From the NCBI GenBank assembly GCA_003696605.1, contig RFGV01000266.1:1-49048 (forward strand): DNA of 49,048 nt, read 5' to 3'. The DNA comes from Chloroflexota bacterium. Lineage in GTDB: Bacteria > Chloroflexota > Anaerolineae > Promineifilales > Promineifilaceae. Made by a program: the position numbers and the translations under genes. The notes beneath the pieces are model-generated. The model worked only from the letters and a program-made list of their open reading frames with translations, searched no databases and had not been told where the DNA came from. Numbering within the stretch: the first letter of the stretch is position 1; each line of letters begins with the position of its first letter. Below are positions 34,357-41,655 of this stretch, one piece after another.

Positions 34357-35523
34357 TCACTTTTCCATATCCCGCAAAGCAAAATACGCCTTTCGCGGCG
34401 TACCATCCGGCAGCACAATGGACCACCACCATTGTTCATCTTCCGGTGTCCAATCAGAATTGGCAATGTAAACAGTCGTCATCAACCCAATCCAGGGTTG
34501 CCAGTTTTCCCGTGCATACTGATATGCTCGCACCAAATACTCCGCTTGCGTCGCTTCATCCACAGCATACCACGCATAATCCGGATTTACTTGATCCAGC
34601 GTCCAGCCCATTTCCAGTATCACTACCTGCTTGTGACCATCTCCATTAGCCACCATAATCGCTCGCATATCTTCTACATGCCGAAAAGCAAACCAGCGTC
34701 CACCACCATATTCTGGACTGACAGCTGCTTCTGGCGGTAACTCTGGTGGTGCTTTAAATCCAGGTGCATGAACCCCCAATGCATCAAAATAAGCGGCCGC
34801 ACCAGCATCATACATACCTTGCAAAAACTCGGTGTCTGGTATGGCAACTGGTAGCCCCGTTCCGGTCGGCGCCAGTCCTGCAGAAATAACAATGGCCTCC
34901 GGATCAGCAGCCTTAATGGCTTCGTAGCAAGCCTTTAGCAATGCGGTGTACTCAACAGGGTTGGGTGGCCGCTCACCCCATTCCCGACTTAAGTTAGGTT
35001 CATTCCATACCTGGTAAGCGGCAATGCGCCCCCGATAGCGGCTGGCAACGGCACCGCAAAAATCGCCAAAATCTTGATAGTCGGCTGGTGGTTGGTTCTC
35101 TTTGTATTGATTGTCGGCTGGTTCTGCCCAAAATGGTTGCCGGTCCAGACGAACGAGTAGTTTGATTCCGGCTGCTTCTGCTTCACTTACAATCAGATCC
35201 GGCCGGTACCAATCATAACGCCCTTTTTGGATGCCTTCGATTTCTCGCCAGGGGAATTCTTGTTTTACCCAGCCAAATCCCATTTCTTTAACCAAATTGA
35301 GATCGCGAATGGCGATGTCTGGTTTCCACCAGAGGAATGCTTGTACGCCGTATTCTGGTGAATTGAATATGGGTTGCACAGGTACATCCCCCATAAGTGC
35401 TGAGGGTAAGGTGGGGGTTGGTGGCAGGGTGGGTGTTGCTGGTGGGGTAACGGCCGTTTGGCATCCAGCCAGCAACACCCCCAAAAAAACAATTACTTGC
35501 AGGAAGGATGCTACTCTTTTCAG
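34357..35523 (-). CDS. Lipoprotein with clan-A glycoside hydrolase fold, CTG start
   Basis: A 388-residue secreted lipoprotein. The body is a (beta/alpha)8 GH-A domain related to GH39/GH5: FGWVKQEFPWREIEG, YQVWNEPNLSREWGE (acid/base Glu after Asn) and VVILEMGWTLDQ (nucleophile Glu), so both catalytic residues are present. No ATG/GTG fits. CTG at 35523-35521 gives the signal KRVASFLQVIVFLGVLLAGC, has GGAG 8 nt upstream and overlaps the stop of the preceding gene as CTGA, just as ATGA overlaps do; the first TTG (35484) would delete the basic part of the signal. A palindrome encodes QTAV directly after the lipobox. The sugar substrate is unknown. Confidence 0.85.
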   Translation of the reverse strand: MKRVASFLQVIVFLGVLLAGCQTAVTPPATPTLPPTPTLPSALMGDVPVQPIFNSPEYGVQAFLWWKPDIAIRDLNLVKEMGFGWVKQEFPWREIEGIQKGRYDWYRPDLIVSEAEAAGIKLLVRLDRQPFWAEPADNQYKENQPPADYQDFGDFCGAVASRYRGRIAAYQVWNEPNLSREWGERPPNPVEYTALLKACYEAIKAADPEAIVISAGLAPTGTGLPVAIPDTEFLQGMYDAGAAAYFDALGVHAPGFKAPPELPPEAAVSPEYGGGRWFAFRHVEDMRAIMVANGDGHKQVVILEMGWTLDQVNPDYAWYAVDEATQAEYLVRAYQYARENWQPWIGLMTTVYIANSDWTPEDEQWWWSIVLPDGTPRKAYFALRDMEK

Positions 35524-36839
35524 CGTTTTTTCTCCATAGCGGCAATCGCCCCAAAAGCCGGTCGGGGAATGCCGTTGATGTCCACAATGCTATAAGGGAC
35601 AGGATCGTCTGTAGGCCCTGAACCTTTATTGCCGAAGTCAAAGTTAAAGAGGAAGGCCAGCCACACATTGCCGGAATCGTGCATTTGCTGGTAAGCCTGA
35701 ACGATGAAGTTGGCCTGTTCTTCCAGCGTATTGTCCAGGGCAAATTCAAATCCGGTAGGAACCTGATCGTATCCCTCGCTGCTAGCCCAGCCGAATTCAG
35801 TTACACACAGTTTTTTGTTGGGGTCAATGGCATGCACTTTTTCAGCGTAGGTATCGAGAGTGGTTTTGAAACTCCAACTATGGTGCGGGTTATCAAAAGG
35901 GCCACGGAAAACGGCCGTTTGCGCTTCGGGTGTACTACCAGCCGCGTCAAATGTCACATCTGGCCCTATATTGTACCCATTGTGGTGCACACCAACACAG
36001 TCCGCATAATTAAGCATTCCTGCCGCCAGAGCCCTGTCCAGATACTCAAAGTCATCTGCCCATCGTATCCAGTCTCCCGTGCCCGTTGGTGATAGCGCAC
36101 CACTAATCACAATGATGTTTGGATCGATTGCCTTGATTGTCTCATATGCCACCCGCAAAAACTCAACATAATCCTCCGGACTGATCCCATTTGGCGAGGT
36201 CCATTCCCGGTCCAGATTCTGCTCATTCCACACTTCAATAGCATCAATCCGCCCAGGATGCCGGGTAAGCAGTTCGGTCAAGAATTGCGCGTACTGATTG
36301 TAATCATCTGGCGGGCCATTTTCTCCACCTTGAGCCCGTGTCCAGGCTGGTGCCCCAACCACACTAACCATCAAACGGAGGTTGTGAGCATGAGCCTGCT
36401 CAATCACACTATCATAAAAGAACCACTGGTCAGCATCTGGGCTGGGATGAACAAGCCACCATTGAATTTGCATTTTTACCCAGTCTAACCCCAATTGGTT
36501 ACGAACAGCGTTCATTGTATCGGCCGGGTTGCCAACAGTGGCATTGCCATGCACCTGAATCCCATAGCCAAAGGCATCTGCGGGCCAGGGCTGGTCGAGG
36601 GGGATGATGTCAATGGCCGGATCGTCGGCAGAAACGGCCGTATCCGGTGGCGAAACTGGCTCACCATCCTCCGTAATCTGAGGCGGGGGCAACAAAGTAG
36701 CCGTCGCAGGCGCTGGCGGCAAAGTAGGTGCCACAGCCGGTACCGTGGGGGAAACGGCCGTTTCCCCACCACCACAAGCCACCAACAAACCCATCACCAC
36801 CCCCCCCAACAACAACCAAGACACCAATCTCTTTCCCAT
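35520..36839 (-). CDS. Lipoprotein with clan-A glycoside hydrolase fold
   Basis: A 439-residue lipoprotein paralogous to its two neighbours. Signal MGKRLVSWLLLGGVVMGLLVAC with lipobox, then a Pro/Ala/Thr linker (about 24-75) that begins with palindrome-encoded ETAVS, then the GH-A domain: LGLDWVKMQIQWW, AIEVWNEQNLDREW (acid/base Glu), VISGALSPTGTG, and LCVTEFGWASSEG (nucleophile Glu). The active site looks intact. Start ATG 36839 has GAGG 9 nt upstream. It overlaps the next gene by 4 nt, so the two are made together. It probably cleaves or binds extracellular polysaccharide. Confidence 0.9.
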   Translation of the reverse strand: MGKRLVSWLLLGGVVMGLLVACGGGETAVSPTVPAVAPTLPPAPATATLLPPPQITEDGEPVSPPDTAVSADDPAIDIIPLDQPWPADAFGYGIQVHGNATVGNPADTMNAVRNQLGLDWVKMQIQWWLVHPSPDADQWFFYDSVIEQAHAHNLRLMVSVVGAPAWTRAQGGENGPPDDYNQYAQFLTELLTRHPGRIDAIEVWNEQNLDREWTSPNGISPEDYVEFLRVAYETIKAIDPNIIVISGALSPTGTGDWIRWADDFEYLDRALAAGMLNYADCVGVHHNGYNIGPDVTFDAAGSTPEAQTAVFRGPFDNPHHSWSFKTTLDTYAEKVHAIDPNKKLCVTEFGWASSEGYDQVPTGFEFALDNTLEEQANFIVQAYQQMHDSGNVWLAFLFNFDFGNKGSGPTDDPVPYSIVDINGIPRPAFGAIAAMEKKR

Positions 36840-36998: not shown

Positions 36999-39900
36999 TT
37001 ATCCGCCACCCATCACCTGGCGCAGCGTTTCACACGCCGGACAACTTCCACCCGGCCGAATAATCGCGTAACCCGCCTGCGGGTCATCACCCCACGTTGT
37101 CGAATCCACATTCCACACAATCATTAACCGGACTTTACCACTACTCGCCGACAAACTCGCCGCTTCTGCCAGCCACTGCGCCTGCTGCGACACCGTCACA
37201 TTCTGCGCCCAGGCAAAGCCGCCCGGCAATGAACCATACCCCTCAGGCGTCAAATAACCCAACTCAGTAAAGCACAACGGGCGTGCCCCACCAAATGCAT
37301 TCCAGTAAGTATCCACCATTCCCCAGAAATACCGGGTGTAATGATGAGACCGCGGATCACCACTGGTCTGGTTCGGAGAAATAATCCCCTCATTATAGTG
37401 AATACCAATACAATCCATATAACTGGCTGCACCAGCCGCTGCCATACCAGCCACATAAACACCATCATCACAGCCAGCACCACTACACCCCCCAAAGAAA
37501 CCAGTCGGGGCAGGCGCACCACTAATCACCATAATATTGGGATTCGCCGCTTTGATGGCATTATAAGCCGGCGCCAAAATATTATTGACATAAGCCGCCG
37601 GATCGATCTGTCCTGCCGGCCACTCCCGGTCAATATTCTGTTCATTCCAGACCTCAATAGCATCTGGTGGTTCAGGCAAAGAAGCAACCTGTGCCAGGAA
37701 ATTGACATACGCATTAAAGTCAATCGCAGACGGATACAAATTAGCACCCGGAATACTCAGTAAAATCTTGAAACCAGCCGCGTGCGCTTCTGCAATGACT
37801 CCAGCCACCACATCACCAGTTTGCCCGGGTGACCATTTGTGCTGCCGTTTAATCCACGTCATCCCTGCATACTGCATCAGGCCGTATGGCGCACCAAAAG
37901 CCTGACCACCCAGTTCAAAGCCGCTGTTGGCAACTGGTGGCACGCTTACCGGTGGCGGCGCACTACCACCACTATCCCCACCACCATCGGCTACGGTGGG
38001 TGGCTCAACTTCAACCACTTCGAGAGCAGTAATATCCACGTTCGGATTTACTGTAACCAGTGAAGCAAAAATCCAACCTTCTTGCCCATCTGGCAGGCGG
38101 ATATTGAACCAGCTTGCATCGCTATTACGCCCCAGCAGGCTAACCTTGGTGCCGGCAGATGCCCCACCAGCTATCAGGCCGTAGCCCAGACCAGGGCCTG
38201 TACGGACGTTGGCATTGGTGTTTACAACTGCATCTGCATCACCCGGGTCGAAACCGGTATTGGTGGGTGGTTCTGTTTCGGCCGTTGTGGGTGCAGCCGC
38301 AGTTGGTTCGGGGGTTGTTTCTACAACCGGTTCTTCTTCAGCTACTACGGCCACTGTGGCTGTGTCCAGATTGATAACCGTATCGCCCAGGGCGAAATCT
38401 ACATCGATGATGAAATTACCAGCTTGCTCAGAGCCATCCCAAACGAAGGAAAGTTCCTCACCTGTGCCACTGGCCAGAACACTGCCACTTTCATCTCGAA
38501 CAGTCCAGACTATGGCCGCGCCACTGGGCTGAGGTGCTTCGCTCACTCCCAGGTAGCTGCCCAATGCATCGGCGTAAGGTTGTCCATCAGTGATGTTGTC
38601 CAGGCCGCTAACGGCTACGCCTCCCAGATTGAACTGGTGCGCCAGTCCTAACCGTGCGGCTAGTGCAGCTGCATTGCCTAACCAAACCTGGTGGGTTTGT
38701 TCGGAAAGTTCATAGCTGTATTTGTAGGTGAGGCTGACGCCATCCCATTCTAATGGACTGGCTGTTCCAGACAGGGCCACTTCGATTGGTGTGCCTGGCT
38801 CAACTTCTTCGCTCCCTTGTACAAACTGAAGTGCGCCAAAGTTGACAAGTGCCTGGTCGTTGGGAAGCTCGACGAAAGCTTCGCCCAGACGGTCAACGGC
38901 GTTGGCTGTAATGAGCATGCCCAGCTTTTGCCGATTGACGTGGTGGGTTGCCCAGCTAAGAACCTGGGCGGCTTTGCCATCGGTTGTGTAGGTTTGTGGG
39001 TCGAGGGGCATGCGGATATAGATGGTGTCGGCAATTTGGCCGAGTTCGGCCCAGTTTTGGCCGTCTGTGTCCCAACGGCCGTTTATTTGTATGGGCGCGT
39101 TGAGTGTCAGGGCCAGTTTGAGTCCCTGGGCATGCAAGGCATCGGCCAGGCTGCGAACATAGGCGGTAAATGCCTCTCCTTGTGCGGAAGGCACTGCCTG
39201 ATAGTCCAGGTTGACACCAACAAAGTTTCCTGTGCTGGCTTTTTCAACCAGGAGGCTTATTTGGCTGGTTTGTTGTTCGGCATTGGCTAATAGTGCTGAA
39301 AGGGAAGCCTGATCAATAACTGCTCCTACATTGGTGACGTGAAGGTATTGATCATAGGGGCCGGTGGGAATTTCGGCCGTTTCGCCCTGCAGCATCCCTG
39401 CTTCTGTACCACCCAATGTCAAAGTTCCTACCAATACTTCTGTGAGATGGGGCATAACTTCTGCCGGGAGTTCTCCTTCTGGCCGCACGATGGCTGCCAC
39501 GCGTGGAGAGTCTGGAGCAGTGGTTTGCACCAGCGCCAATGCTTTGGGCAAAGGACCGGGCAGGGTTGTCATTTGTCCGGAGCCCATGTCCATTTCGAAT
39601 GGTATAAATTGCCATGCTGTGCCGTCCCAGCCATACAAATCGAGGGTATCGGCCGAACCGGCATTTCCCGGTACAGTAATGGTTGCCTGTCCGGCTGGGG
39701 CATTCTCGTCATACTCAATGATGTACACTTCTCCCACTGGTGAGAGTTCGGAAGGCAGGGCTGCCGCACTGTTTTCCTGGATAAAATCGGCCAGGTTGGA
39801 TACTTTGACGTTTACCCGCGCATTGGGGTCGCTCAAAGTAAGAGAGAATTGGCCAGGAATTTCCTGTGTTGTTTCAGTGGTGGGAATAATCGTGGTGAGT

Positions 39901-40118
39901 CCCCCGCTTTGCTCGCCATTGTCTCCCAGCCCTAGCCGCTCTCCCAGTGAAATGGGGGGGAGGAATAACCCGGCTATGATAAGCAAGGCCACAACGATAA
40001 AGCCGGCGATTAATAAGCCGGTGGGGCGTTGGGCTGTATTGCCGGTATCTGTTGTCTGTTCTATTTCTGGCGACGTTTTGGTTTCTTCCGTCTCCAAAGA
40101 CGGCCGTTCTTCTTCCAT
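36999..40118 (-). CDS. Large membrane-anchored protein: GH18-like, SH3b and GH-A domains
   Basis: A 1039-residue surface protein. Order: acidic cytoplasmic tail (1-32), transmembrane helix (33-55), a beta-rich region (90-215), a GH18-type barrel (about 250-520), a beta domain (530-595), Thr/Pro linker, bacterial SH3 (630-690, ANVRTGPGLGYGLIAGG), a second linker, and a GH-A barrel (735-1039). The GH-A domain has IEVWNEQNIDREW (acid/base Glu, about 825) and LCFTELGYLTPEG (nucleophile Glu), as in the two downstream paralogues. In the GH18-like part the motif position reads FVGVNLDYQ, with Gln replacing the catalytic Glu, so that barrel is probably non-catalytic. Start ATG 40118 follows GGAGG. 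It may act on cell-wall or matrix glycans. Confidence 0.9.
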   Translation of the reverse strand: MEEERPSLETEETKTSPEIEQTTDTGNTAQRPTGLLIAGFIVVALLIIAGLFLPPISLGERLGLGDNGEQSGGLTTIIPTTETTQEIPGQFSLTLSDPNARVNVKVSNLADFIQENSAAALPSELSPVGEVYIIEYDENAPAGQATITVPGNAGSADTLDLYGWDGTAWQFIPFEMDMGSGQMTTLPGPLPKALALVQTTAPDSPRVAAIVRPEGELPAEVMPHLTEVLVGTLTLGGTEAGMLQGETAEIPTGPYDQYLHVTNVGAVIDQASLSALLANAEQQTSQISLLVEKASTGNFVGVNLDYQAVPSAQGEAFTAYVRSLADALHAQGLKLALTLNAPIQINGRWDTDGQNWAELGQIADTIYIRMPLDPQTYTTDGKAAQVLSWATHHVNRQKLGMLITANAVDRLGEAFVELPNDQALVNFGALQFVQGSEEVEPGTPIEVALSGTASPLEWDGVSLTYKYSYELSEQTHQVWLGNAAALAARLGLAHQFNLGGVAVSGLDNITDGQPYADALGSYLGVSEAPQPSGAAIVWTVRDESGSVLASGTGEELSFVWDGSEQAGNFIIDVDFALGDTVINLDTATVAVVAEEEPVVETTPEPTAAAPTTAETEPPTNTGFDPGDADAVVNTNANVRTGPGLGYGLIAGGASAGTKVSLLGRNSDASWFNIRLPDGQEGWIFASLVTVNPNVDITALEVVEVEPPTVADGGGDSGGSAPPPVSVPPVANSGFELGGQAFGAPYGLMQYAGMTWIKRQHKWSPGQTGDVVAGVIAEAHAAGFKILLSIPGANLYPSAIDFNAYVNFLAQVASLPEPPDAIEVWNEQNIDREWPAGQIDPAAYVNNILAPAYNAIKAANPNIMVISGAPAPTGFFGGCSGAGCDDGVYVAGMAAAGAASYMDCIGIHYNEGIISPNQTSGDPRSHHYTRYFWGMVDTYWNAFGGARPLCFTELGYLTPEGYGSLPGGFAWAQNVTVSQQAQWLAEAASLSASSGKVRLMIVWNVDSTTWGDDPQAGYAIIRPGGSCPACETLRQVMGGG

Positions 40119-40461
40119 TGTTGTTTTACCTCCAACTTGTCGGATGTATCATTGTCACTGCTGGCATTTTCTCCATGTTGTATCTCCTTGCCAAAAATGC
40201 CAGGCAAATACCGGAGGGTACATAAAAAAACGGCCGTTTCACAAGCCGTCTGCTCTGCCTCTGGCAGTCACCCTGCCACCTCCGGCAAAGTGTTGAACAT
40301 TCTAGCACAAGGATTTACGACTTGCCAAACCAGCCCCCTCTCACCACCCAAACATCCCCATTTCAGTGGCAAATCGTCAAAAAGAAAAGCGGGTGAGCAG
40401 TCACCTACTCACCCGCATCTCATACTTAATTAATCTAGTCAGCTAATCTAGTCAGTTCCCC
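40119..40461. other. Intergenic region between DUF3179 gene and large surface protein gene
   Basis: About 340 bp. It holds a palindrome copy at 40229-40238, the terminator at 40380-40417 and, close to the stop codon of the DUF3179 gene, a short direct repeat (AATCTAGTCAG twice near 40433-40454). No gene is supported. Confidence 0.5.
40380..40417 (-). terminator. Rho-independent terminator after the DUF3179 gene
   Basis: On the minus strand GCGGGTGAG and CTCACCCGC form a perfect 9-bp stem (10-nt loop), followed by TTTTCTTTTT. Confidence 0.9.
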
Positions 40462-41562
40462 CTAGTCATCTATCCCATACACAACAGTATCTGGATGAAA
40501 ATCTTTCCAACCAAACCAGAAAGAGGTTGTACTTTTAACACGTACCAATTGATTGCCAGTCAAAGGTCCTGCAACAGCCTCTCCTGTAAACGCATCCCAG
40601 ACTGTACCTGTTTCATTATCCACAATCGTTGCCGGAAAATCGGCCGGTTCAAATGTCAATACCTGGTCTGCCACGCGTCGATCAAACACAGCACTGGCCA
40701 CACTATTTACATCAAACACAACCAAAATATCATGCGATCCCACTGAGTCATTAATCACTGGTTCATCGTTCAGCACACTAAATGGATAAGCAACAGCCTT
40801 ATCATTCAGCTCAACACCTATTACAAATTCCTTTGTATAAAGGCGATCATCTGAAAAGGTTTCACCAACTACACCAGCAGAGCCGGAACGGTAATAGCTG
40901 TCATATACATCCCGTGCACCACGTCGCCCGCCCTTATCCAGTGCCAGCGTGTCGGGGTATTTCTCTTTCCACTCCGACCAGGTCATCATCCATGAGGGCA
41001 AAAATTCCAGTTTCGTGCCAATCATTTCGCCTTCAACGGCTTCACCCAAGAGCTGACTCCAATAGCTTTCGGTTTGGCGATCGTACATGACTAATACGTT
41101 ACGAATCAGTTTGCCAGATACACCAAAGGTATATTCTTTCCCATTAATTTCTCGGGCATACACGATGCCCGTAAAACAAAGCGGTCACCATGTTACGGCG
41201 ATTTTCACGCCACCCACTTCGTCGTTTACGATTTCGTGGTTGCTTAGCAGGGGAACGGAGTATGCACGGGTATCCCCATTGAACGTAACCCCTATCACCA
41301 GTTCATCAGGATCGTAGAATTCATCGGCTTCGTCGGCAGTGAGGAAGCGGGGGTTATCAATAGCAGGAATGGCGTCGCGGGGAAGTAAAGTGACAATGCG
41401 CAAATCAGCATATTTTTCGGGATTTACTGTATTGGCTGGTATGTGTTGAGAGGTGGCGGTTTTATTTTCTGGCAGGGATTGTGATGTGCAGGCGGCAAGT
41501 AGCAAAATGAGTCCCACCCAAAATGCAGGAATGGTGAATGGGGGCTTTTGTCTTTTTGTCAT
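40462..41562 (-). CDS. DUF3179 lipoprotein, candidate selenoprotein (in-frame UGA at 41187-41185)
   Basis: Read through one UGA, this is a 366-residue DUF3179 protein. The signal peptide ends in ILLLAAC, so it is an extracytoplasmic lipoprotein. Before the UGA: DELVIGVTFNGDTRAYSVPLL, SNHEIVNDEVGG, KIAVTW. After it: PLCFTGIVYAREINGKEY, TFGVSGKLIRNVLVMYDRQT and the rest of the domain, in the same frame. In the family this position is the first Cys of a CPLC motif (usually TYCPLC), so UGA sits at residue 126 as U-P-L-C129. A hairpin with bacterial SECIS geometry follows (separate entry). Start ATG 41562 has AAGGAG upstream. The alternative is a nonsense mutation or two split fragments. The hairpin and the intact downstream frame argue for selenocysteine, but no sel genes are in the window. 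Confidence 0.75.
41153..41187 (-). promoter_or_regulatory. Candidate bacterial SECIS element
   Basis: On the minus strand, starting from UGA (41187-41185): 13 nt, then CGGGCAU (41171-41165), loop CGUGU (41164-41160) and AUGCCCG (41159-41153). The stem is 7 perfect base pairs. The loop begins 20 nt after the UGA and has G as its second base, which meets the published general consensus for bacterial SECIS (short stem-loop about 16-37 nt after UGA, G early in the apical loop). The stem is also coding (TGIVYAR). Confidence 0.7.
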
Positions 41563-41655
41563 AGGCTCTCCTTATTGTATTCCTGGCAGGTGATTCGTAT
41601 TGTCGCAGGTTGTGTATTATTATTGTAAGTATAGTGATGAGGTTGGTCTGTAAGC

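Follow-up and report, generated by a model that had tools for sequence, protein, structure and literature searches.

Two adjacent open reading frames on the minus strand of a Chloroflexota contig (RFGV01000266.1, assembly GCA_003696605.1), at 41185–41562 and 40462–41163 of the 49,048-nucleotide stretch analysed here (the window), lie in the same frame and are separated by a single TGA. Such a codon may mark a broken gene, an error of assembly or a site of recoding, and the locus raises the question of which of these applies. The first-pass annotation of the window proposed that the frames are the two halves of one DUF3179 lipoprotein in which selenocysteine (Sec) replaces the first Cys of a CPLC motif, and that DUF3179 is a new selenoprotein family.

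Read through the UGA, the gene spans 40462–41562 on the minus strand, with ATG at 41562, 366 codons and a TAG, matching the expected product of about 366 residues. A Shine-Dalgarno-like AAGGAG (41568–41573, by sequence) precedes the ATG and an intrinsic terminator with a 12-bp stem and a T-run (40389–40416) follows the gene, both on the minus strand; as had been claimed, the frame is intact to a normal stop and terminator. Residues 62–359 match Pfam PF11376 at 304 bits (cut-off 27) across the full profile (1–292 of 292), which, with the shared frame and single TGA, confirms that the two frames encode one DUF3179 protein. Inspection of the N-terminus revealed a signal peptide and lipobox (...LILLLAAC25TSQ), L-A-A-C25 at 41488–41499 (minus strand) being the putative signal peptidase II site with its lipid-modified Cys. 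The UGA (41185–41187, minus strand) is codon 126, in the context ...VTW-U126-PLC129-FTG... (SVPLLSNHEIVNDEVGGVKIAVTW-U-PLCFTGIVYAR), and takes the first position of U-P-L-C. The codon of Cys129, the putative resolving Cys of this UxxC motif, lies at 41176–41178 (minus strand) and is nearly invariant among aligned relatives (A2).

We compared the codon at the U126 column across DUF3179 matches from 298 genomes of the class together with 80 further named loci. Among the class matches listed with a stop, 29 had a single TGA, one a TAG and one a TAA. At the U126 column itself, 152 distinct copies comprised 94 with TGA, 57 with TGC or TGT and one with CGT, and none carried TAA or TAG; a few copies are overlapping pieces of one gene, and the distinct contexts number 91 UGA and 56 Cys. 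Homologues therefore do pair UGA with Cys at this column, as the annotation had supposed, and no random stops or frameshifts occurred in relatives at the site. These counts bear on the simplest alternative, that the UGA is a nonsense mutation in a pseudogene from which only a 125-residue fragment is made. Standard-code ORF calling does cut the gene in two, but past the UGA the frame stays open and the Pfam match is full-length, 94 distinct copies share the TGA with neither TAA nor TAG at the site, and the downstream RNA element covaries (see below); the comparative data already refute a pseudogene, which we regard as highly improbable. A misassembled TGC or TGT is less credible still: the 4.9 Mb genome is in 705 contigs, but the same codon is TGA in the independently assembled L121, L094, L145 and L056–L058, so this explanation, too, is already refuted and its probability is negligible. 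The single CGT copy (L165, ~4196) encodes Arg at the Cys/Sec site (VTW-R-PLC) and may reflect either natural loss or an assembly error.

Judged by record titles, which mostly denote metagenome-assembled genomes, UGA copies are present in Chloroflexota, Acidobacteriota, Nitrospinota, Tectomicrobia and Methylomirabilota, and in records named Deltaproteobacteria, Verrucomicrobiota, Bacillota, Marinimicrobia and Poribacteria; no relatives of the window gene were found on viral contigs. PF11376 also has a match in the genome of the archaeon Haloferax volcanii. On a quick tree, on which gain and loss are not separable, the Sec/Cys state changes at least 4 times, compared with 44 times when labels are shuffled, suggesting that the two forms have repeatedly replaced each other while the state is mostly inherited. 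The set also includes a divergent branch (L076, L077 and L078) with U-A-A-C or U-E-A-C replacing U-P-L-C, in which the L076 protein starts with a hydrophobic stretch and the stem-loop GCGGCAU-CGUGU-AUGCCGC, with near forms, covaries with other DUF3179 stems. A Dehalococcoidia genome (L112, 3622–5630) carries two tandem UGA-DUF3179 genes with one stem-loop each.

Sec insertion in bacteria calls on an RNA hairpin downstream of the UGA (bSECIS), and a candidate had been proposed here. It was found exactly as described: a perfect 7-bp stem enclosing a 5-nt loop (CGGGCAU-CGUGU-AUGCCCG; 41153–41171, minus strand) begins 13 nt after the UGA, with 20 nt from UGA to loop and a minimum free energy (MFE) of −10.4 kcal/mol (dinucleotide-shuffle z −3.6). 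The bSECIS model, as set out in PMC13188914, specifies a loop of 3–9 nt, a stem of 4–16 bp, G in the first two loop positions, a spacing of 16–37 nt and an MFE of at most −7.5. The window element agrees with all five constraints (loop 5, stem 7, loop CG.., spacing 20, MFE −10.4), which bears out its assignment to bacterial SECIS geometry. An Rfam scan of the gene gave no matches. Within the window alone, a perfect stem has P ~0.02 under synonymous shuffling, a modest value, and the decisive strength of the SECIS evidence thus comes from the comparative set.

Scored at nucleotides 14–20 and 26–32 after the UGA, the 91 distinct Sec contexts averaged 6.19 Watson-Crick pairs of 7, compared with 4.00 in 1000 synonymous-codon sets (sd 0.11, max 4.40), whereas Cys copies had 2.52 pairs at the same positions versus 2.30 in their shuffles. 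The loop matched NG[G/U] in 90 of 91 Sec copies versus 30 of 56 Cys copies. Covariation scored 0.310, against 0.081 when shuffled and at most 0.105 with the stem slid, and both sides change in five of the seven stem pairs, yielding compensatory variants such as CGGCCAU/AUGGCCG, CGGGAAU/AUUCCCG, CUGGCAU/AUGCCAG, CGAGCAU/AUGCUCG, GCGGCAU/AUGCCGC and CGGGUGU/ACACCCG across at least nine phyla. The stem is thus conserved by covariation, beyond coding constraint, and is absent in Cys forms. Reciprocal Gly/Ala swaps between T-G-I-V-Y-A-R and T-A-I-V-Y-G-R preserve the pairing, and the RNA constraint of the SECIS appears from these sequences to extend into the protein. A covariance model (R1) trained on more distant relatives only, with relatives of the window excluded, gave the window element as the sole significant match in the genome (60.9 bits, E 5.5e-15), in keeping with the covariance-model check that had been suggested. 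R1 missed two tandem paralogues on contig C152; a mismatch or bulge interrupts their stems, making their SECIS less certain.

The genome contains the full decoding machinery: tRNA-Sec (70.9 bits, anticodon UCA), SelB (362 bits), SelA (585 bits) and SelD, which carries its usual UGA (CAG-U-ASK) and is split between two contigs. Absence of the sel genes, which the first-pass annotation had named as fatal to its proposal, is therefore contradicted. In the class, tRNA-Sec was detected in 15 of the 18 genomes with UGA-DUF3179, the other three being 64–87% complete; since 225 of the 298 class genomes have tRNA-Sec, this co-occurrence is consistent but weak, and does not discriminate. More telling is that tRNA-Sec and UGA-DUF3179 share one fetched 8–9 kb stretch in L076 and L120. 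A SelD-like gene, recognised by sequence, lies less than 4 kb from DUF3179 in five loci. UGA has been reassigned in some uncultured bacterial lineages, and codon 126 could in principle specify an amino acid other than Sec, whether by reassignment across the genome or by general readthrough. We consider this very improbable: TGA ends 14 of the 36 long ORFs in the window, indicating that UGA is not generally reassigned; each gene has one UGA, at the Cys column only; and tRNA-Sec, SelA, SelB and SelD are all present. Codon, SECIS and sel-gene tests all agree, so by every computational test this is a selenoprotein gene, and the central claim of the annotation, that a bacterial SECIS directs Sec into a UxxC motif, is strongly supported. 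UGA codon 126 is, with high confidence on this sequence evidence, predicted to be read as Sec.

Four other DUF3179 genes are present in the genome, two with Cys (on contigs C152 and C421) and the two tandem UGA genes on C152. All Sec-UGA codons compete with termination, and the UGA might accordingly serve as a selenium-dependent switch, giving a truncated product without selenium and the full-length lipoprotein with it, the switch being as important as the chemistry. The Cys paralogues could serve when selenium is scarce, but neither a regulatory element nor a conserved neighbourhood speaks for a switch, which we consider unlikely; we prefer to regard the UGA as a site of Sec insertion for redox chemistry.

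The region around the tandem genes (L017 on C152, 7091–10058) holds three consecutive predicted selenoprotein genes, the two UGA-DUF3179 genes and then a UGA-containing deiodinase/AhpC-like gene (FTUPYC), beside a divergent Cys-type DUF3179 gene. Among fetched loci, the deiodinase/AhpC-like gene adjoins DUF3179 only in this genome, and we rejected it as a partner for that reason. No conserved operon partner was found among the loci compared; local synteny, with an SCP2-domain gene and a downstream large lipoprotein, was restricted to the closest relatives.

Other features of the window were observed in passing. The palindrome ACGGCCGT occurs 61 times (for example at 40230, 41667 and 42167), whereas base composition predicts 0.8; across 92.6 kb of the genome it has 138 copies, and the next commonest palindromic octamer there has 7. 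Sites are also found in L016–L019, L056, L057, L081 and L094, and the octamer is enriched in the same-family genomes G234, G290 and G204, whereas G194 shows hardly any enrichment and G094 none. Where it falls in frame, it appears to encode the NGRF/TAVS/KRPF peptides that recur in many ORFs. The cyanobacterial HIP1 repeat is similar, and a limited literature search found no link between this octamer and HIPs. Adjacent minus-strand genes at 35520–36839 and 36999–40118 encode secreted proteins that look like duplicates: a glycosidase-like region (VWNEQN.DREW) is common to both, and an SH3_3 domain is present in the larger.

We modelled the protein with AlphaFold2 using 53 relatives as input and Cys in place of Sec, obtaining predictions for the whole protein (pLDDT 90.5, pTM 0.85) and for its first half alone (pLDDT 96.1, pTM 0.91). 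The halves align with each other as tandem duplicates (hhalign 99.9%, E 5e-37), and the Cys pair is retained in the first alone: residues 80–209 (40936–41325, minus strand) form a predicted Rieske-like repeat bearing UPLC, and residues 238–363 (40474–40851, minus strand) a second without the pair. In structure comparison, the matches listed for both halves were all Rieske-type, at Z 7.9 over 92 residues for the first and 9.1 over 91 for the second, values near the range of chance matches. Sequence profiles made no such connection: PF00355 (Rieske) matched none of 53 DUF3179 members up to E 10, hhalign against a Rieske profile reached a probability of 11% at best, and a profile search of solved structures returned only chance haemoglobin matches. 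With Z near chance level and the profiles unconnected, we treat a tandem Rieske-like fold as no more than likely. The cluster-ligand motifs CxH and CxxH are both absent from the window protein, and this, with the lack of a detectable sequence match, led us to reject an iron-sulphur (Rieske) function. In the register inferred from aligned ranges, D161xxT164 and D315xxT318 take the position of the Rieske CxxH, and UPLC falls, in the predicted model, in a beta-hairpin turn other than the Rieske cluster loops. On these grounds we expect no Rieske cluster, but rather a selenol/thiol pair on a beta-scaffold.

The route from gene to function would then run as follows. SelB with Sec-tRNA-Sec would bind the hairpin 13 nt past the UGA, allowing its decoding as Sec; the protein would be exported and lipid-anchored at Cys25; and the first Rieske-like domain would display the U-P-L-C selenol/thiol pair in a beta-hairpin turn, where Sec126 may attack a substrate and Cys129 resolve the bond. 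An extracytoplasmic thiol/selenol oxidoreductase is the role we somewhat favour; our literature search found no tested function for the published family. With about equal readiness to be right or wrong, we propose that DUF3179 represents a non-thioredoxin selenoprotein class, in which a tandem Rieske-like scaffold lost or never had its cluster and carries UxxC/CxxC in another hairpin. On this view the family would be an extracytoplasmic redox lipoprotein widespread in Chloroflexota and other uncultured bacteria, with repeated exchange between Sec and Cys forms and both retained within a single genome. Under standard annotation, UGA genes come out split or truncated, and part of this surface redox set is consequently misannotated in Chloroflexota and several other phyla. 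The Sec and Cys forms, together with the SECIS and the structure model, make DUF3179 function testable, and the family points to a selenoprotein scaffold unlike that of thioredoxin.

The proposed novelty of the family did not survive comparison with the literature. DUF3179/PF11376 is tabulated as a prokaryotic selenoprotein family with the Sec motif UxxC/T in two reviews (PMC9312934, PMC13188914), which credit Zhang and Gladyshev 2007 (Nucleic Acids Res 35:4952), by their account work on the deltaproteobacterial symbiont of Olavius algarvensis. The window gene is thus a further member, identical to these published selenoproteins, as tabulated, in Pfam family and UxxC Sec position. In their material on DUF3179 that we consulted, the reviews do not mention Chloroflexota, a family SECIS, the fold or same-genome paralogue sets. 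The breadth of the distribution, the covariation of the SECIS, the repeated switching between Sec and Cys and the predicted fold may be additions of this work, as may the set of three Sec and two Cys paralogues in one genome, though each may have been described before.

Compared with known bSECIS elements, the window element is alike in loop, stem, G position, spacing and MFE, with no essential difference; its stem CGGGCAU/AUGCCCG and the covarying forms are specific to the DUF3179 family. Both halves of the protein resemble Rieske [2Fe-2S] ferredoxins (2qpz, 1vm9) in predicted fold, but have no detectable sequence homology to them, have DxxT where Rieske proteins have CxxH, and belong to a tandemly duplicated domain with its Cys pair outside the cluster loops. 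Thioredoxin-fold UxxC selenoproteins (Prx-like, DsbA-like and Trx-like) share UxxC with DUF3179 and probably the same selenol/thiol chemistry, whereas DUF3179 is predicted to place that motif on an all-beta tandem repeat rather than a thioredoxin fold.
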